A DNA stretch of 39,587 bases from NCBI GenBank assembly GCA_016880465.1, contig JAEHDK010000441.1, forward strand, positions 1 through 39,587, read 5' to 3'. Shown here piece by piece: positions 5,191-23,340 of the stretch. Source of the DNA: Micromonosporaceae bacterium. Its GTDB lineage: Bacteria > Actinomycetota > Actinomycetes > Mycobacteriales > Micromonosporaceae. Under the pieces are notes generated by a model, which did not search any database, was not told the DNA's origin, and saw only the letters and a program-made list of their open reading frames with translations. The first letter of the stretch is position 1, and every line of letters begins with the position of its first letter. Position numbers and translations under genes: made by a program.

Positions 5191-6363
5191 ATGAACACCA
5201 CCGAGGTGCTCACCACGTTCCTCGACTTCTACCGCGAGCGCGGCCACCAGCGCGTCACCGGCGGTTCCCTCGTACCCCCGGCCGGAGATCCGGTCCTGTT
5301 CACCACGTCCGGGATGCACCCGCTGACCCCGTACCTCGAGGGCCGGCCCCATCCGCTGGGCAGGCGGCTGGTCAACGTCCAGCGCTGCCTGCGTACGACC
5401 GATCTGGATGACGTCGGCGACAGTACGCATCTGACGGTCTTCGAGATGCTGGGATCGTGGTCGCTCGGCGACTATTCCGGCCCGCAGAGCCTGCGCTGGG
5501 GGTACGAGCTGCTGCGCGACGGCTTCGGTATCGGGCCGGACCGGCTGCACGCGACGGTGTTCGGTGGCGACGGGCAGGTAGGCCTGGACGCCGAATCCCT
5601 GCAGACGTGGGCGGAGCTCGGTGTGCCGGTGGAGCTGACCCGCGAGGACAACTGGTGGTCGAACGGCCCCACCGGGCCGTGCGGCCCCGATTCGGAAATC
5701 TTCGTGTGGACCGGTACGCCGCCGCCGTGCGGCACGCCGACCACCGACCGGCGCTGGGTCGAGGTGTGGAACCACGTGATGATGCGGTACCGCCGGCACG
5801 TCGACGGCAGCCTGGAGCGGCTGACAAAGTCCAATGTAGACACTGGCATGGGCCTGGAGCGCCTGCTGACCGTGTTGCAGGACAAACGATCCGGTTACGA
5901 GTGCGACGTGTTCGAGCCGTGGCTACGTACGGTGTCGGGCTTGTGGGACCTCGACGAACCGTCTTTGCGGATCACCTGTGACCACCTGCGGTCGGCGGTC
6001 GTCGTCATCGGCGACGGGATCCGTCCGTCGAACACCGGGCGCGGGTACGTACTGCGCCGGCTGATCCGGCGCACGCTGACGGCGATGTGGCGCGTCGACC
6101 CATCCCGGACGCTGGCGGACCTGCCGGACGAGCCGGTCGGGCACACGGTGGCGCACTTCGGCCAGGACCTCGACCTCGCGCCGGTCCGTCACGCCCTGCT
6201 CGACGAGGAGCGACGCTTCCGCCAGCTCCTGCACCGGGGGCGTCCGCTGGTCTCCCGGTTGCGCTCAGCCGGCCCGCTGAGCGAGGAGGACATCAGCTAC
6301 TTGCACGAGACGCACGGCATCCCGCGCGAGCTGGTCGTCGGCGGGCTTCTCGCGGACGACTGA
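5191..6363 (+). CDS. Short alanyl-tRNA synthetase-like protein (catalytic core only)
   Basis: 390 residues against about 880 for AlaRS. It covers the class II aminoacylation domain and the following helical tRNA-recognition region. Matching segments are: TTSGMHPLTPYLEG (38-51, AlaRS: TNAGM); VQRCLRTTDLDDVGD then TVFEMLGSWSLGDY (63-95, motif 2); NWWSNGPTGPCGPDSEIF (154-171); EVWNHVMMRY (191-200); VDTGMGLERL (216-225, motif 3); and SNTGRGYVLRRLIRR (280-294). It ends at ETHGIPREL, where full AlaRS passes into the editing domain, so editing and C-Ala domains are absent. The kept active site argues for alanine or similar amino-acid activation, but charging tRNA without editing is uncertain. Other possible roles are an amino-acyl donor for biosynthesis or a regulator. 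It is convergent with the carbonic anhydrase gene. Confidence 0.75.
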   Translation: MNTTEVLTTFLDFYRERGHQRVTGGSLVPPAGDPVLFTTSGMHPLTPYLEGRPHPLGRRLVNVQRCLRTTDLDDVGDSTHLTVFEMLGSWSLGDYSGPQSLRWGYELLRDGFGIGPDRLHATVFGGDGQVGLDAESLQTWAELGVPVELTREDNWWSNGPTGPCGPDSEIFVWTGTPPPCGTPTTDRRWVEVWNHVMMRYRRHVDGSLERLTKSNVDTGMGLERLLTVLQDKRSGYECDVFEPWLRTVSGLWDLDEPSLRITCDHLRSAVVVIGDGIRPSNTGRGYVLRRLIRRTLTAMWRVDPSRTLADLPDEPVGHTVAHFGQDLDLAPVRHALLDEERRFRQLLHRGRPLVSRLRSAGPLSEEDISYLHETHGIPRELVVGGLLADD

Positions 6364-15421: not shown

Positions 15422-16072
15422 TCAGCGCCAGCCGGCCGGCTCGGCCGTACTCGGACCCACCCGCTCGTCCAGCCAGGCGTGCAGCGGTGCGGCCGTACGC
15501 AGAAACTCCACGACGCGCTTCTTGGCGGCCGCGGTGCCCAGCCACGCGGCCACGGGCCAGTCCCGCCAGGCGATGAGGTCCTTGTGGCACAGCAGGTCGA
15601 TCCGTGGGTGGTCCCTCGGGTACCCCTTGGGTGCGCTCTTGAGGCTCGCCGTCCCGCTGACCGTGATCTGTTTGGCGTCGAGCCGGCCGATGATGGCTAC
15701 GAGGTCTGCGCCCGGTACGTCATCGGCGACCGCGCGCCGGTAGCGGTCGAGCTGGTCGGGAGCCATCAGGTAGTACCCGGTTCCGGCCGTGAGCCCCTCG
15801 GCGCTGAACCGTACGTAGCCCCCGCGTTCCAGGGTCGCGTAGATGCCGGTCTTGTACGGCGACTTGTCCTTGCTGAACCGCACGTCGCGGTACGGCCGGG
15901 AGATGCGCCCACCGCCGAACTCGTCGGTCAGCTCGGCGAGCAGCCCGGCCATCGGCGCGTACACGCTTGTCTCGTACACCGACCTGTGTGCCGTCCAGTA
16001 CGTCTTGGAGTTGTCTGCCGCCAGGCCCTGGTAGAACTCCACCGCCTCGATGGGCCACCCGGAAAACGCCAT
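15422..16072 (-). CDS. DUF2461-family protein
   Basis: 216 residues. Family segments are visible: an FYQGLAADNSKTYWTAHRSVYE start (13-34), PYRDVRFSKDKSPYKTGIYA near 60, GYYLMAPDQLDRYRRAV near 100, and KGYPRDHPRIDLLCHKDLIAW near 150. DUF2461 proteins are cytoplasmic and of unknown function. The start lies 10 bases after the stop of the large SARP/oxidase gene. The stop codon TAG of that gene is itself part of a -10-like TAGGCT box 7 bases before this ATG, so the gene may be transcribed both by read-through and from its own leaderless promoter (16085-16073). Confidence 0.8.
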   Translation of the reverse strand: MAFSGWPIEAVEFYQGLAADNSKTYWTAHRSVYETSVYAPMAGLLAELTDEFGGGRISRPYRDVRFSKDKSPYKTGIYATLERGGYVRFSAEGLTAGTGYYLMAPDQLDRYRRAVADDVPGADLVAIIGRLDAKQITVSGTASLKSAPKGYPRDHPRIDLLCHKDLIAWRDWPVAAWLGTAAAKKRVVEFLRTAAPLHAWLDERVGPSTAEPAGWR

Positions 16073-16082
16073 GCCGGGAAGC

Positions 16083-19000
16083 CTAGCCAGACCGCGGCCG
16101 GCACCCCAGCGGCGCGGTCCCGACCGGGTGCCCCTCGATCGGGAAGTACCGGTCGACCAGCTCGTTACCGAACTTTCCGGTCGGGTCGTACGCGCGCCGC
16201 AGGCGTACGAAATCCGCCCACCGGTCGTACCGGTCACGCAGCACCGCCGGTGGAGTCCGGAAGAGCTTTGCCCAGTGCGGGCGGGCGGCGAACGGTGCCA
16301 GCGCCTCCTCGACCGCAGCCAGCGCTGCGGCCACCGCGGGCACGTCGAGGACCCAGGTGAAGTGGATGGCCAAACTGTCCCGCCGGTAGCTCGGGCTCAG
16401 CCACAGGTCGTCGGCGGCGACGGTACGGACCTCGCTGACCTGCACGACCGGCGCGACGCGGTCACGGATGCGGTCGATCGCGGCCAGCGCCGGCATGCCG
16501 TGCTCGCGGGCCACCAGGTACTCCGACTGCAGCTCGGCGCCGCTGCTCGGGATGGCATCGACCCGGAAGTGCGGCAGCCGGGCGTACCAGGGACCCGGCG
16601 CGCCGAGCTGGGCCGTGCAGCCGGCGGCGGGCAGGCGGGCGATGGGATGCCGGGGTCCGTCGGCCAGCCGGGCACCGAGCCAGGCTCGGCCCGGCGCCGG
16701 TTCGCGGCCATCGATCCGCCGCTTCAGCCACAGCTGATTGACTTCCGGGCCGGTCCAGTCGGTGAACAGGCTCACGCTGTACGCGCTGCCGAAGATCTCC
16801 GCCCAATGCTCGTCGAGCTGCCCGCGTGGCAGGTTCTCGTAGACGTACTGGGCGACGTCGAACGCGGGCACGATGTCCAGCGTCACGGCCGTGACGATGC
16901 CGAGCACGCCGAGCCCGACGACCGCGCCGGCGAACCGGTCGCCGCCCCGCCGCAGCGTCACGAGCTCGCCGTCGGCGGCCACCAGCTCCAGCTCCGCGAC
17001 CGAGGTCGCCAGGTTGCCGTTGCGGTCGCCCGAGCCGTGGGTTCCGGTGGCAACCGCGCCCGCTACCGAGAGGTGCGCCAGCGAGGCGAGGTTGGCCAGC
17101 GCGTACCCGGCGGAGTGCAGGTACGGCGCCAGTTCCCCGTACCGCACGCCGGCGCAGACCCGGACGACCCGGCGCGCAATGTCGATGTCCATGACCGGCG
17201 GGAGTCCGGCCAGCGAGACGAGATCGCCGCAGGTGTCGGCGAGCCGGCTGAACGAGTGACCGGTTCCGACGGCATGGATGCGTTCGCTGCCGGCGACCAG
17301 CCCGCGAAGTTCGTCCACAGTGGACGGCTCGAGATACCGGGACGCCGAGAAGACCACATTGCCGGCCCAGTTCGTCCGCCCGATCACGCGGGCTCGCCGA
17401 GCCGCCGGCGCCGCTGACTCCGCCGGGTTGCCGTCCACAGTGGATAGCCAGGCGCCGACGGCGGCCGCCTCGGCGTGCCGGTGGGTGCCCAGGATGCCGT
17501 ACGCCTCCCGGCCGTCGCCCGCCGCTCCCAGCCGGTCGCCGCCGGCCAACCGGGCCCGCCCGAGCAGGTACAGGGTCCGCGCCAGGTAGGTCTGCTGGCC
17601 GGTGGCCCGGAGGATCGTCACCGCCGGTTCGAGGTGCGCGATCGCCTGAGCCGGCCGGCTCTCCGCCAGGTGCAGGCGGCCGAGATTTCGCAGCGCGGTC
17701 GCCTCACCCCACGGATGGCGCAGCTCCCGAGCCGTCCGCAGGGTCCGGTCGAGCAGGTCGCGGGCGCGATCCAGGGCGCCGAGCGTCAGGTACACGCCGG
17801 CGAGGGAGTTCTCTGCCATCGTCAGGTTCAGCCGGTCGCGCAGTTCGGCGTACATCTCGATGGCGCGCCGCAGGTGCGTGATCGCGGCCTCGAGCTGCCC
17901 CTGCTCGTGCAGTGCCTGGCCGAGGAACGCGTGCGCCTCGGCGGCACCCCAGCCTTCGCCGAGTTCGTCGAAGATGGCCAGTGCCCGCCGTACCGTGCCG
18001 GCGCGGTCCGGCGTGTCGCGGGTCGCCAGCACGGCGTAACCGGCCAGCGGTGTGCTGCCGCCGTACCGATCCAGGTGGGTGAACGCGGCCTCGAGCATGG
18101 CCCTGGCGAACCGTGGCCGGCCGAGCAGGCCGGCGGCGACCGACCAGCACAGCGCCGCGCAGGCCGCGCCGAGTGGCTCGCCGACCTTCTCGAACTGCCG
18201 GTACGCCCGGCGCAGCAGCGCGAGGGCGGCCCGGTCGTCGTCGCGGAACCGGTACAGGTTGCCGAGGTTGAGCCAGAGCGTCGCCTCGACCGCGGGGTCG
18301 AGCGGGCAGCCCGGCGCGTCGAGTACCGCGCGGTGACTGTGCTCCCACTCGTCCTGGTACCCGCGCATCATGCAGAAGTTGACCATCGACGCCGCCAAGC
18401 GGCCGGCGAGATCGCGCCAGCCGAGCCGGACCGCATGGTCGACGGCCACGACGAGGTGCCCGCGCATCGCCTCGAACCAGCCGACCGGGTCGGCCGGCGG
18501 ATCCTCCACCGGCACCGCGGGCGCCGGAACCGGGCTCGCCCGGCAGGGCAGCCGGCCGTTCGCCTCCACGGCGGTGGCCAGCAGGGCCCGGCAGACCCGC
18601 GCTACGGCCGCGTCCAGCGCCGCTGCCGGCTCGGTGTCGCGCGCCCGTACGGCGGCGTGCAACCGTACGAGATCGTGGATGCGGTACCGATCACCGTCCA
18701 CAATGGAGATAAGGTGGGCCGCGCTCAGGTCGTCGAAGAGGCGCTCCGCCTCGCGCGCCGGCAGCTCAAGAAGTGCCGCCCCGAAGGCCGGTGTGACGGT
18801 CGGGAACGGTACGAGGCTGAGCAACCCGAGCAGCCGTGCCGCCTGGCCGTCCAGGTGCTGGTAGCCGACCTCCAGGCTCGCGCGTACGTCCAGATCGGCC
18901 GCGACCAGCTCGTCCAGGCGCCGGCGCTCGTCGGCCAGCCGGTCGGCGAGGTGGACCGTGTCCATGGTGCGGCTGCGCACCAGCCGGACGGCGGCGACCC

Positions 19001-20477
19001 GGATGGCCAGCGGCAGCCCGCCGCACAGCGCGACCACCCGTTCGGCGTCGTCCCGCTGGCCGCCGATCCGGCTCTGCCCGGCGACCCGGGTGAGCAGGCG
19101 TACGCCGTCGGTGAGTGGCAGCGGGTCGACCGCGACCAGACGCGCACCGGCCAGGCCCGTCAACAGCGGCCGGCTCGTCACCAGCACGCCGCAGCCCGCG
19201 CCCGGCAGCAGCGGCCGCACCTGACCGTCGGTTGCCGCGTTGTCGAGGACCAGGAGCATCCGCCGGCCGGCGAGGACCGACCGGTACAGCCGCTCGCGAC
19301 CGGCGAGGTCGGCGGGTGTCGTCTCGGTCGAGATGCCCAACGCGTGGAGGAACGCACCGAGTACCACCCGGGGCGGCGTGGGCTGCGCGTCCGTACCGCG
19401 GAGGTCGACGTACAGGCAGCCGTCCGGGTACTCGTCGCGTACCTCGTGCGCGAGCCGTACGGCGAGGGTCGTCTTGCCGATCCCGCCCATGCCGGAGATC
19501 GCGACGATCACGGCTGAGCCGGGTGCATCGGGCGGTGGGCCGGCGCGCAGCATCGCGCCCAACTCGCCGAGCTCGCCGCGGCGGCCGACGAAGTCGGCAA
19601 TGCTCGCCGGCACCTCCATGGGCACCGGCAACGGCTCGGCCGGCCTGGGCCGGTCCGCGGGTTTGGTCGCGTCGCCGGGCATGGGCGGGTCAGGCGCCTC
19701 GACCGGGTACGACTCGGCCGACACCGCGCTCCACAGTAGAGCGTTGTCGCGGCGGAGCACCGCCTGCCGCAGCTCGGTGAGCTCGGTGCCGGGCTCGATG
19801 CCGATGTCCCCGACGAGGGCCGCCCGCGCGCTCGCGAACACGTCCAGCGCCGCGGCCGGATCGCCGACCCGGTACAGCGCGAGCATCAGCAGCGCCTGGC
19901 CGTGCTCCCGCAGCGGGTGGGCGCCCACGTGCCCGCGCAGCAGCGGCAGGACCGCGTGGTGCCGGCCGAGCCGGAGCTGAGCCTCGAACGCCAGCTCGGC
20001 GGTGGACAGGTAGACATCCTCGAGCGCGGTACGCCGGGCCGCGAGCCCGGCCCCGACCGGGACGCTCTCGAAGGGCCGGCCGCGCCACAGCCCGCACGCG
20101 CTCGTGAGTGCCTCGGCGCCGGTGGCCGGGTCGCCGTTCGCGAGCGCGGTACGCCCGGCCGCGACCAGCTCGGCGAACACGTCCAGATCGAGCTCGCCGG
20201 GCCGGACCCGCAGGAGGTACCCGCTGCCCGCGGCCGACAGGCGGTCCGGCGGCAGGAGCCGGCGCAGGCGCATCGCGTACGTCCGGATGTTGGCCACGGC
20301 CGATGCCGGCGGCCGTTCGCCCCACAGCTCGTCCACCAGCCCTTCGGGCATCACCGCACGGTTTGCCGACGCCGCGAGGACGGCCAGCATCGTGCGCAGT
20401 TTGGGTGCGCCGATGGCTACCGGCTGCCCGTCAAGCCGTACCTCGAACGGGCCCAACATGCGGAGCTCGCAGCGCAC
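16083..20477 (-). CDS. SARP-type regulator (BTAD/NB-ARC/TPR) fused to FAD-linked sugar oxidase
   Basis: 1464 residues in one uninterrupted frame. Residues 1-90 are the winged-helix DNA-binding domain and 95-250 the BTAD helices of SARP activators. Residues 290-570 are an NB-ARC ATPase with Walker A GMGGIGKT (329-336) and Walker B LLVLDNA (408-414). About 650-1010 are TPR helices. From about 1035 a complete aldonolactone/alditol oxidase begins (TNWAGNVVFSASRYLEPSTV). GTGHSFS holds His1074, expected to bind FAD covalently, and the end has PHWAKLF and YDPTGKFGNELV. The oxidase part equals a stand-alone enzyme starting at GTG 17387 (434 residues), but no stop or good ribosome site separates the two, so as sequenced they form one protein. 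It may link DNA binding to sugar or redox sensing. GTG 20477 is 6 bases after a TACAGT box. Confidence 0.8.
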   Translation of the reverse strand: MRCELRMLGPFEVRLDGQPVAIGAPKLRTMLAVLAASANRAVMPEGLVDELWGERPPASAVANIRTYAMRLRRLLPPDRLSAAGSGYLLRVRPGELDLDVFAELVAAGRTALANGDPATGAEALTSACGLWRGRPFESVPVGAGLAARRTALEDVYLSTAELAFEAQLRLGRHHAVLPLLRGHVGAHPLREHGQALLMLALYRVGDPAAALDVFASARAALVGDIGIEPGTELTELRQAVLRRDNALLWSAVSAESYPVEAPDPPMPGDATKPADRPRPAEPLPVPMEVPASIADFVGRRGELGELGAMLRAGPPPDAPGSAVIVAISGMGGIGKTTLAVRLAHEVRDEYPDGCLYVDLRGTDAQPTPPRVVLGAFLHALGISTETTPADLAGRERLYRSVLAGRRMLLVLDNAATDGQVRPLLPGAGCGVLVTSRPLLTGLAGARLVAVDPLPLTDGVRLLTRVAGQSRIGGQRDDAERVVALCGGLPLAIRVAAVRLVRSRTMDTVHLADRLADERRRLDELVAADLDVRASLEVGYQHLDGQAARLLGLLSLVPFPTVTPAFGAALLELPAREAERLFDDLSAAHLISIVDGDRYRIHDLVRLHAAVRARDTEPAAALDAAVARVCRALLATAVEANGRLPCRASPVPAPAVPVEDPPADPVGWFEAMRGHLVVAVDHAVRLGWRDLAGRLAASMVNFCMMRGYQDEWEHSHRAVLDAPGCPLDPAVEATLWLNLGNLYRFRDDDRAALALLRRAYRQFEKVGEPLGAACAALCWSVAAGLLGRPRFARAMLEAAFTHLDRYGGSTPLAGYAVLATRDTPDRAGTVRRALAIFDELGEGWGAAEAHAFLGQALHEQGQLEAAITHLRRAIEMYAELRDRLNLTMAENSLAGVYLTLGALDRARDLLDRTLRTARELRHPWGEATALRNLGRLHLAESRPAQAIAHLEPAVTILRATGQQTYLARTLYLLGRARLAGGDRLGAAGDGREAYGILGTHRHAEAAAVGAWLSTVDGNPAESAAPAARRARVIGRTNWAGNVVFSASRYLEPSTVDELRGLVAGSERIHAVGTGHSFSRLADTCGDLVSLAGLPPVMDIDIARRVVRVCAGVRYGELAPYLHSAGYALANLASLAHLSVAGAVATGTHGSGDRNGNLATSVAELELVAADGELVTLRRGGDRFAGAVVGLGVLGIVTAVTLDIVPAFDVAQYVYENLPRGQLDEHWAEIFGSAYSVSLFTDWTGPEVNQLWLKRRIDGREPAPGRAWLGARLADGPRHPIARLPAAGCTAQLGAPGPWYARLPHFRVDAIPSSGAELQSEYLVAREHGMPALAAIDRIRDRVAPVVQVSEVRTVAADDLWLSPSYRRDSLAIHFTWVLDVPAVAAALAAVEEALAPFAARPHWAKLFRTPPAVLRDRYDRWADFVRLRRAYDPTGKFGNELVDRYFPIEGHPVGTAPLGCRPRSG

Positions 20478-20608: not shown

Positions 20609-21154
20609 ATGTCCGTCGATCTCGCCCTGCTCGGCGCCGGGTGCGTGGTGAGCGCGGTGCTGCTGTGCTCCGGGCTCGCCAAGCTCGCGGTACCCGGGCC
20701 GGCTGGGCGTGCTCTCGCCGAGCTGATGCGCGTACCCCGAGCCCGGGCGGCCGTGCCGGTGCGGACGCTGGCCGCCGGGGAGACGGCCGCCGCGGTGGCA
20801 CTGCTGCTGCCCGGCAGCCGGTTCTGGGGTGCGCTCGCGGTCGCGCTGCTCGGGGTCGCCTTCGCGGTTGCCGGTCTGGTCGGCATCCGCCGCGGTGCCG
20901 ACGTGCCGTGCGGCTGCCTCGGGGGCGACCACGGCCGGCCACTGGGCGCCCGCAATGTGGGTGCGGGCCTGGCCCTGACCGCGGCGGCGGTCTGGGTCGC
21001 GGCGTCCGCCGGGCGAGCGTCGCCCGGCGGCCCGCTGCCCGTGGTCGTCACCGCGGGGCTCACCCTCGCCTGGTGCGGGTGCCTGCACCGGGCGCTGATC
21101 AGGGACCTTACGAGATCCTGGAACGCCCCGACCGACGCGAGCGGAGTCGCGTGA
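20609..21154 (+). CDS. MauE/DoxX-like redox membrane protein
   Basis: 181 residues with four to five transmembrane helices (about 5-25, 50-68, 72-92, 112-132, 140-158). The family is that of MauE, a membrane protein needed for making the disulfide-rich methylamine dehydrogenase light chain. Features: SGLAKLAVPGPAGRALAEL after helix 1, and PCGCLGG near 97-103, the pair of cysteines typical of this group and probably redox-active. Another CGC motif stands near 158. Strong Shine-Dalgarno upstream. The next gene overlaps its stop (TGATG), so a MauD-like partner is made with it. The role in electron or disulfide transfer is inferred from family and neighbours. Confidence 0.75.
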   Translation: MSVDLALLGAGCVVSAVLLCSGLAKLAVPGPAGRALAELMRVPRARAAVPVRTLAAGETAAAVALLLPGSRFWGALAVALLGVAFAVAGLVGIRRGADVPCGCLGGDHGRPLGARNVGAGLALTAAAVWVAASAGRASPGGPLPVVVTAGLTLAWCGCLHRALIRDLTRSWNAPTDASGVA

Positions 21155-21690
21155 TGATGTACCTGTTCGGATTCGTTCTCCTCCTGCTCACCGGCGCGGT
21201 CGTCGTCCTGTTCGCGATGCTCGGCGAGCTGTCCTCCCGGGTCACCCCCGGTTCAGGCGGCAGCCCCGAGGACGTACGGCCGCTGCTCGACGTACCGGTC
21301 GGCAGGGCGCCGGAGCGTTGGCCCGGCCCGCTCGCCGAGCTCGCCGGGGCCGAGCAGGCCGTCGCGCTGGTCCTGAGTACCGCGTGCACCAGCTGTGCCA
21401 AGGTCGCCGGCCAGCTGCGCGACCAGCCAGAGCTGGTCGCCGGCCAGCACATCGGCGTGGTGATATCCACGGCGGACCGCCAGCGCGGCGACGAGTTCGT
21501 CGCGCAGCACGGCCTGGCCCGCCTCCCGTCCTATGTGGACGAACAGGGCGAGTGGGTGGTGCGGGAGTTCGGCATCAACACCAGCCCGTCGGCACTGGTG
21601 TTCCAGCGCGGGCGGCTGGTATCCGCGTTCGTGTTCACCGACGCCGCGGCGCTCCGCGCGGCGGCGCATCCCGCTAAGGAGGCGGTATGA
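21154..21690 (+). CDS. MauD-like membrane-anchored thioredoxin
   Basis: 178 residues. One N-terminal transmembrane helix (4-23) anchors an extracytoplasmic thioredoxin-like domain. The active site is CTSC (Cys78, Cys81) in STACTSCAKVAGQL, and the cis-proline loop is INTSPSALVF near 149. MauD proteins have this build and are needed together with MauE for forming the six disulfides of MauA. Here it should oxidise, reduce or isomerise disulfides in an exported partner, most simply the Cys-rich protein encoded next. The start could be GTG 21151, ATG 21154 or ATG 21157. ATG 21154 fits GGAG 8 bases upstream. It overlaps the next gene by 4 bases. Confidence 0.75.
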   Translation: MMYLFGFVLLLLTGAVVVLFAMLGELSSRVTPGSGGSPEDVRPLLDVPVGRAPERWPGPLAELAGAEQAVALVLSTACTSCAKVAGQLRDQPELVAGQHIGVVISTADRQRGDEFVAQHGLARLPSYVDEQGEWVVREFGINTSPSALVFQRGRLVSAFVFTDAAALRAAAHPAKEAV

Positions 21691-22031
21691 GCGACACCGA
21701 CGAACGGCCGCCCGAGCGGTCCGGCGGCAAGACCCGGCGCCGGATCCTGGGCACCATCGGCGCCGGTGGCCTGGCTACCGCGGCGGCCGTGTTCGGCCGG
21801 TCCGCACCGGCGTTCGCCGGCAACTACGGCTGCTGCAACCTGGCGTTCACCCCGGGCAGCAGCCGGTACATCGGCTGGAGCAGTTGCACGAGCTACCGGC
21901 TCTGCCCGAACTGCCTGGGCAAGTACATCTGGTACTGCAGCAAGTCGCCGTCGATGGACTGCGGGTGCTGCGAGCTCTACTCGGGCAACTACAACTGGCA
22001 GTACTCCGGCGCCACCTGTTACTACGCGTAG
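21687..22031 (+). CDS. Tat-exported small Cys/Tyr-rich protein (MauA-position)
   Basis: 114 residues. A twin-arginine signal TRRRILGT (16-23) with a mild hydrophobic stretch ends at APAFA-GNY, so the mature protein is about 70 residues. It holds ten cysteines (49, 50, 67, 73, 76, 84, 92, 94, 95, 111), ten tyrosines and three tryptophans (64, 82, 104). Tat export means it folds, or takes up a cofactor, before crossing the membrane. The order MauE-MauD-this gene equals mauE-mauD-mauA, where MauA is a Tat-exported, six-disulfide protein carrying a tryptophan tryptophylquinone. I see no clear alignment to MauA and no heavy-chain gene, so it is called only by position. It may be an electron carrier, a modified peptide or a toxin-like knot. 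ATGA overlap with the MauD gene. Confidence 0.8.
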   Translation: MSDTDERPPERSGGKTRRRILGTIGAGGLATAAAVFGRSAPAFAGNYGCCNLAFTPGSSRYIGWSSCTSYRLCPNCLGKYIWYCSKSPSMDCGCCELYSGNYNWQYSGATCYYA

Positions 22032-22041
22032 CGGCCCGGCC

Positions 22042-22101
22042 GTGGCTGTCTGGGTGGTACTGGGCATCGCCGGCGCGGTACTCCAGGTGCTCAGTCCTTG
22101 A
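22042..22101 (+). CDS. Possible 19-residue hydrophobic peptide
   Basis: GTG 22042 opens a 19-codon frame VAVWVVLGIAGAVLQVLSP that would make a single membrane helix. It fills most of the gap between the Cys-rich gene and the membrane protein gene. No Shine-Dalgarno is visible, so it could be a chance frame. Confidence 0.2.
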   Translation: MAVWVVLGIAGAVLQVLSP

Positions 22102-22110
22102 GGTTTGTCG

Positions 22111-22686
22111 ATGGCTGGGGTCGCCAGCCCGATGATCCGGCAGCGGCCGTGGTCGGGAGCCAGATTCCTCGGCGGGCTCGCGGCCGGCGGCATGGTGGCC
22201 GGCCTCCTGCTCGGCATCGCGGTCTACCTCGCCGGCGGCCTGTTGACCCGGGTCCTGCCGGCACCCGGACGGCTGTGGCTGCTGGCGGCGGTGGCGGTCG
22301 CGCTCGGCGTCGCCGACCTGCGCAACCGTACGCCGCAAGTATGGCGGCAGGTGCCGCAGCGGTACGTGCGGGTCCTCCGACCCGGCACGCTCGGCCTGGT
22401 CTGGGGTTTCGACCTCGGACTTCTAGTGACGACACAGAAGACGGTGTCCCTGCTATGGCTGTCGATCGCCGCAGTGCTCCTGCTGGACCCGACAGACGCG
22501 CCGGTCGTACTGGCGAGCGTCGCGTTGGTCGCGAGTACGGCGGTCGTGATCTGGAGCCTGCTGCCGTGGGCCACGAGGATCGAAAGGAGGCAGGACCGGA
22601 CGTGGGTACGCCGGGTCCGGCTGGCGTCGGCCGGGGTACTGCTGACGGTGGGCCTCGGCGTGACGCTGGGGGCCGTCTTGGCCTGA
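22111..22686 (+). CDS. Polytopic membrane protein of the MauE-like operon
   Basis: 191 residues with about six hydrophobic segments (roughly 16-40, 50-65, 90-106, 110-127, 133-153, 170-190), separated by short Arg-rich cytoplasmic loops (DLRNRTPQVWRQVPQRYVRV; RIERRQDRTWVRRVRL). No cysteines occur, so it is not itself a thiol carrier. I cannot assign it to a family. A CcdA/MauF-like role would fit the neighbours, but the motifs are not there. The ATG at 22111 has AGG 8-10 bases upstream. The gene is 79 bases after the Cys-rich gene, on the same strand. It may anchor or supply the exported product. Confidence 0.7.
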   Translation: MAGVASPMIRQRPWSGARFLGGLAAGGMVAGLLLGIAVYLAGGLLTRVLPAPGRLWLLAAVAVALGVADLRNRTPQVWRQVPQRYVRVLRPGTLGLVWGFDLGLLVTTQKTVSLLWLSIAAVLLLDPTDAPVVLASVALVASTAVVIWSLLPWATRIERRQDRTWVRRVRLASAGVLLTVGLGVTLGAVLA

Positions 22687-22724
22687 ACCCGACCTTCCAC
22701 CTGGACCCCGGCGGCGGCCAGGCA

Positions 22725-23066
22725 ATGATCACCCGGTTCGAGTGCCGGACGATCCGCAACATGCTGGTCGTCCTGCTCCTGCATCTACGCGTGAAGCGGG
22801 ACGTCCGGCGGCAGGCGCGCGGGTTCCTGGGCATCGTGCTGCGGCGCGACTGGCGCACCCGCACGATCGTGAGCATCTCGCTCGGGCAGGACATGCACAG
22901 CGTCTACTCGATGGGCGACGTGCCGCGGCACGTCGCGGCTGCCCGGGTCCCCCGGCAGCTCGGCATTACCACCCGGTGCGGGGTCTTCTGCTACGCGGGG
23001 GACTGGCGGCGGGTGATGTTCGGTACGGACGACGAAACCCCATCGCCTCTCACGCCGAGAGACTGA
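22725..23066 (+). CDS. Unknown small basic protein in the MauE-like operon
   Basis: 113 residues from ATG 22725, 38 bases after the membrane protein gene. The N-terminal half is strongly basic and amphipathic (RTIRNMLVVLLLHLRVKRDVRRQARGFLG). The middle has WRTRTIVSISLGQDMHSVYSMG and the end TTRCGVFCYAGDWRRVMFG, with two nearby cysteines. The alternation of strands and helices resembles small ferredoxin-like (dimeric alpha-beta barrel) monooxygenase folds, but I see no motif that proves this. The position in the operon suggests a cytoplasmic part in making or controlling the exported Cys-rich protein. Confidence 0.6.
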   Translation: MITRFECRTIRNMLVVLLLHLRVKRDVRRQARGFLGIVLRRDWRTRTIVSISLGQDMHSVYSMGDVPRHVAAARVPRQLGITTRCGVFCYAGDWRRVMFGTDDETPSPLTPRD

Positions 23067-23082
23067 GGACTGAGGAGTTTCC

Positions 23083-23340
23083 ATGGCAATTCCCACCGAC
23101 CGCGGCCTCGTCGTCGTCGACGTCGACGCCGAGGGCATCCACACGGTGTCCGTCTGCGCCCAGGTCGTCAACGGCCAGCCAGTCGACACGTTCGCCAGCC
23201 ACTTCACGCCGTTCCCCGTGCAGATCCACCCGGACGTCCCGGTGGTCACCCGGGGTACCAGCCGGTACACCCGGGCGATCGCGGAGGTGTTCCTCGACGA
23301 GTCGGGCACGTTGCACGTACGCCGCCCGAAGAGGCGCTGA
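23083..23340 (+). CDS. Unknown 85-residue protein, last gene of the MauE-like operon
   Basis: 85 residues, ATG 23083 with a strong GAGGAG 6 bases upstream and only 16 bases after the preceding stop. The sequence is mainly beta-strand: GLVVVDVDAEGIHTVSVCAQVVNGQPVDTFASHF, then FPVQIHPDVPVVTRGTSRYTRAIAEVFLDESGTLHV and a basic tail RRPKRR. No signal peptide or membrane helix. No family recognised. Good codon bias and the ribosome site argue that it is real. Confidence 0.7.
   Translation: MAIPTDRGLVVVDVDAEGIHTVSVCAQVVNGQPVDTFASHFTPFPVQIHPDVPVVTRGTSRYTRAIAEVFLDESGTLHVRRPKRR

Follow-up and report, generated by a model that had tools for sequence, protein, structure and literature searches.

Do a SARP regulator and an alditol oxidase that share one uninterrupted reading frame in a Micromonosporaceae genome form a single protein, and, if so, is the oxidase a built-in sensor of the regulator or a former neighbor joined to it? 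Across the window (the whole 39,587-nt stretch of DNA that was analyzed), the frame holding these two parts shows the strongest codon signal, with a third-position G+C rhythm that is steady through the SARP half and the oxidase half alike. As the first-pass annotation had it, the frame comprises 1464 codons without an internal stop; it lies on the minus strand and runs from a GTG at 20477 to a stop at 16083-16085 (Table 1). Since both halves show homology within this one frame, chance is excluded as an explanation for it.

Table 1. Features of the joined frame and its immediate neighbors (window coordinates).
Feature	Position	Strand	Basis or remark
Single ORF, SARP and oxidase	16083..20477	-	1464 codons, GTG start
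Winged-helix DNA-binding domain, aa 1-95 (Trans_reg_C 24-78)	20193..20477	-	Pfam; AfsR-structure alignment from residue 6
BTAD, aa 96-241	19755..20192	-	Pfam PF03704, E 2.6e-38
NB-ARC / STAND ATPase, aa 324-515	18933..19508	-	Pfam PF00931, E 1.4e-11; Walker A K335, Walker B D412, GLPLA 487
Helical TPR sensor array, aa about 664-1015	17433..18488	-	Pfam TPR; predicted helices; ends of SARP relatives
Linker, aa 1016-1030	17388..17432	-	pLDDT <50; coding-frame preference not clear
GTG at aa 1031, aligned with stand-alone oxidase starts	17385..17387	-	GTGA with next base; TGA 17384-17386 is a +1-frame stop
AldO-type alditol oxidase, complete, aa 1031-1464	16086..17387	-	Alignment with AldO; active-site residues
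Next downstream gene, DUF2461	15422..16072	-	Same strand; 10 bases past oxidase stop
Divergent neighbor, MauE-like membrane protein	20609..21154	+	Pfam

A large SARP and a complete oxidase in one frame

The domains read from the letters at first pass, namely a BTAD, an NB-ARC with intact Walker A, TPRs and a full oxidase, were all recovered by Pfam, motif and structure alignments. In a search against solved structures, residues 6-883 match AfsR (E 3.7e-116). This part displays the winged helix and BTAD of large SARPs (the Trans_reg_C match, E 4.6e-5, being below the curated cut-off), an NB-ARC domain with intact nucleotide-binding motifs and a C-terminal TPR array (TPR_12, E 4.5e-20), whose modeled helical repeats reach aa 1015. 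The motifs comprise Walker A GMGGIGKTT, Walker B LVLD, GLPLA and an MHD-like IHD, whose histidine (H601) lies just C-terminal of the NB-ARC domain. The architecture of the N-terminal 1015 residues is that of AfsR and the other large SARPs, which have about 1000 aa (SARP-NB-ARC-TPR) and end after the TPRs, whereas the present frame continues to 1464 aa and carries a 434-residue oxidase at its C end. As the oxidase follows the TPRs, we restrict the large-SARP name to those 1015 residues. The AfsR equivalog NF053617 reaches only 533 bits against a curated cut-off of 1430; hence, this half resembles a large SARP and not AfsR itself. Its best matches come from the same family (Micromonosporaceae) at about 40% identity, with no clear orthologue. 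For AfsR, recruitment of RNA polymerase falls to the SARP domain, which is inhibited by the NOD and TPR parts; ATP relieves that inhibition (PMC10936776). Judging from its sequence, the N-terminal part is expected to function like other large SARPs, as a DNA-binding activator of the type that switches on antibiotic genes.

The C-terminal part contains the Pfam domains FAD_binding_4 (1047-1175) and ALO (1317-1443). Residues 1034-1443 match the alditol oxidases 8ot8 (E 2.6e-148) and 2vfr (E 1.7e-136) in the search against solved structures, and the full-length alignment with AldO (2vfr) and AldO_Ab (8ot8) places the domain in the AldO type. All eight residues named for the 8ot8 active site (Gln295, Glu327, Arg329, His350, Lys382, Ser103, His118 and His45; PMC10771423) are identical in the alignment (Q1317, E1349, R1351, H1372, K1404, S1132, H1147 and H1074), and H1074 is the covalent-FAD histidine. 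Of the two motifs singled out at first pass, GTGHSF and HWAKLF, both are present, but HWAKLF does not form the very end of the protein, with about 60 residues following it. AldO of Streptomyces coelicolor (2vfr) and AldO_Ab (8ot8) are normally stand-alone enzymes of about 420-430 aa, whereas this oxidase is in frame with the SARP, with no stop, as the regulator's C-terminal part. Because AldO homologues remain functional when fused behind a SUMO domain, an N-terminal partner is tolerable for such an oxidase. Accepting its homology, the C-terminal part should oxidize polyols and release peroxide. The only other oxidase match in this genome is a 36% paralogue, so that the family's oxidase is represented in the assembly by the fused copy alone.

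The reviewed SARP architectures are the small, medium, large and SARP-LAL types (PMC10972967). SARP-LAL regulators (PimR, SanG, FilR type) are like the present protein in combining a SARP domain with extra C-terminal material; however, in these the C half is similar to guanylate cyclases/LAL regulators (PMC10972967), whereas here it is an oxidase. No oxidase-bearing SARP was found in the literature searched. Such a protein, predicted here from one draft genome, would add to the known SARP architectures (PMC10972967).

Other SARPs in long frames were also encountered. The same genome encodes one in a 1558-codon open frame (L167:9745-14418; G000:C766), in which a SARP-NB-ARC runs into a second SARP devoid of a DNA-binding domain (a BTAD remnant, a second NB-ARC and TPRs); this double SARP may be a tandem-paralogue fusion or an assembly collapse. 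Long SARPs of two family members (L170:3336-7301 and L172:3338-6961) display an additional HTH_31/HTH_3 domain ahead of the winged helix in the same open frame.

The join

An alignment of 13 long SARP relatives, most of them from the family, shows that these mostly end at the equivalent of aa 1008-1022, while stand-alone oxidases begin a few residues before NWAGN (here aa 1031-1035, with a GTG present). Because SARP relatives end and oxidase relatives start at the join, two complete genes meet here across a linker of ~15 codons. The GTG that the first-pass annotation had put forward as a possible start of a separate oxidase is found exactly at 17385-17387, aligned with the native starts. In an AlphaFold2 model of aa 561-1464, the TPR helices extend to aa 1015 and are followed, past the linker, by a confident oxidase fold. 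The pLDDT stays below 50 over aa 1017-1035 and 1037-1044, and the 15-residue linker is predicted to be disordered; with an overall pTM of 0.53, the model predicts no set orientation of one half relative to the other.

A less probable but still substantial alternative to a fusion is that these are two tightly packed separate genes, with the apparent fusion stemming from a base error, a strain mixture or an assembly join in the draft. The SARP would then end near 17390-17440 and the oxidase would start at the GTG, possibly with GTGA translational coupling. Consistent with this, the start GTG persists within a GTGA, whose TGA terminates the +1 frame, which is open upstream. A stop/start overlap of the GTGA form is common among overlapping genes, and the sister oxidase in genome G062 likewise starts at a GTGA that overlaps the stop of its own upstream gene. 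However, GTGA or ATGA is common at the oxidase starts of relatives anyway, since the second codon often begins with A, so the GTGA is weak evidence for separate genes. The codon likelihood summed over aa 1012-1030 does not favor the fused frame (-69.7 vs. -65.7 for the +1 frame); most sliding windows in the linker lean toward the fused frame. Linker codons 1020 (GAG), 1021 (TCA) and 1028 (CGA), along with 1010 (TGG) just before the linker, are each one substitution away from a stop, so a single wrong base could create the fusion and, equally, one changed base in the linker would separate the genes. The assembly is an 808-contig draft (94.2% complete, 2.5% contaminated), and the fusion is seen in this one genome. 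Against an artifact, the linker contains no homopolymer of at least 4 bases, and the join is flanked by unbroken frame on either side. It is far less likely that the fused frame is real but that the oxidase is mainly made from the internal GTG, with little or no full-length chain: the alignment of this GTG with native oxidase starts would suit such an arrangement, but direct reading reveals no good ribosome-binding site, with just a weak GGCGAG located a few bases before it.

The origins of the halves bear on how they were joined. In a quick tree, the oxidase groups inside Micromonosporaceae, sister to that of G062 (SH-aLRT 94), and the G+C of the two halves is similar (0.749 and 0.725). Given the same-family relatives and the similar base composition, the halves do not come from unrelated organisms and a cross-species chimera is improbable; these data are compatible with a join within the genome or with the change of a single base.

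Two copies of the near-palindrome GTCCACAGTGGA, at window 17313-17324 and 17433-17444, lie 120 bases apart and span the junction; both encode STVD. This element occurs in 107 copies in the whole genome (0 for the reversed control; about 0.5 expected from composition by our own estimate) and in 0-11 copies in each of 8 relatives. Sampled copies do not have a longer repeat in common in their flanks, and the element looks like a lineage-specific iterated site.

The two genes in related genomes

A search for the same fusion in related genomes, proposed at first pass as a check, did not find it among the matches listed from 355 family, 399 order and 396 phylum genomes. The full-protein query retrieved it from none of 61 genomes, and at the oxidase loci of named genomes the enzyme is separate in 46 out of 46 cases. 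Nearly all of the 355 family genomes match a C-terminal 493-aa query; none of the matches listed is a fusion, the strong ones being separate oxidases. With a 193-aa junction query against the order and phylum genomes, the only fusion among the matches listed is that of the window's own genome. A true fusion should outscore plain oxidases in these searches, and a weakly scoring one could escape them; we take the absence of the fusion in relatives as a strong but not absolute negative. The collection searched holds no second genome of the window's genus.

Gene neighborhoods are equally devoid of a conserved pairing. Within 6 kb of the oxidase at the 46 named loci, a SARP-like gene is found only once (L035; 2.8 kb off, on the opposite strand), and among 10 larger family loci only one (L150) has a SARP, which is partial and more than 5 kb away. 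A SARP beside DUF2461 without the oxidase, which would point to insertion, was approached only at L159, where the SARP is ~5 kb away and divergent, and the neighborhood is not conserved. Relatives with adjacent SARP and oxidase genes separated by a stop, which the first-pass annotation had named as evidence against its fusion, did not turn up; instead, relatives keep the oxidase apart from SARPs.

Some oxidases of other genomes are part of extended open frames (in G031, for instance, one of 1277 aa) and were considered as further fusions. The ones inspected proved to be lengthened by upstream GC-rich open runs, and five of the most suspicious have no SARP upstream.

Fused neighbors or a dedicated sensor

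On balance, we lean toward two complete neighboring genes having been fused in frame, specifically in this lineage and probably recently. Of the first-pass proposals, the loss of a stop between what had been two genes gives the best fit: the ends of SARP relatives fall within about 0-20 residues of the join, oxidase relatives begin there, and the GTG is retained. An AfsR-type large SARP gene would have come to lie directly upstream of the family-conserved oxidase gene, and the stop between them would then have been lost. The product would most likely be one 1464-aa protein, an ATP-switched DNA-binding activator with an oxidase on a floppy C-terminal tether, and the old GTG start may still yield some free oxidase. 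The two halves probably work independently, with each keeping its own job. We infer that the frame is expressed as one chain, that both halves are active and that the fusion is recent.

We consider it unlikely that the protein is a dedicated sensor, in which the redox state of the oxidase, its occupancy or its product (hydrogen peroxide among them) would alter the NB-ARC/TPR autoinhibition and so control DNA-bound activation. Such a sensor would reproduce in covalent form the contact between a STAND regulator and another protein that is known from MalT and MalY, the latter of which is an enzyme. The AfsR precedent, with its inhibitory NOD and TPR parts and relief by ATP, would favor a sensor, as would the position of the oxidase at the sensor end with its active site kept. 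So would the TPR-equipped STAND regulator MalT, which proteins such as MalY keep inactive (PMC10427625) and which, as a STAND activator whose TPR sensor is touched by another protein, is the nearest working analogy. However, MalT and MalY are separate proteins of a different regulator class and partner type, so that the comparison is an analogy only, and we claim no homology of the partners. Moreover, neither the fusion nor a SARP-oxidase neighborhood is conserved in the genomes searched, and the floppy linker offers no predicted fixed contact. The one-protein sugar or redox sensor suggested at first pass thus gained no positive support from a second genome, a conserved pairing or a rigid linker and is the least supported reading. 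There is a slim prospect of a new architecture, a SARP/STAND activator with an oxidase incorporated at its sensor end, by which polyol oxidation or the flavin state would directly gate transcription.

Whether an inducer binds the sensor end of AfsR "remains elusive", according to the authors of that work (PMC10936776). An enzyme joined to the sensor end, if real and functional, would name a candidate signal and make this question testable with one protein. Should the present case be no more than a base error or a newly formed fusion, it would be a useful warning on single-genome fusions in draft assemblies.

Beyond the fused frame favored here, a run of small divergent genes (window 20609-23340) begins with the MauE-like protein, and its next four genes, when tested, had no Pfam match; this run could be the target operon of the SARP. 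Elsewhere in the window, at 5191-6363, the match of a 390-aa gene to the class II AlaRS catalytic family is confined to the N-terminal part (1-402 of 552), as in a stand-alone AlaRS-like protein.
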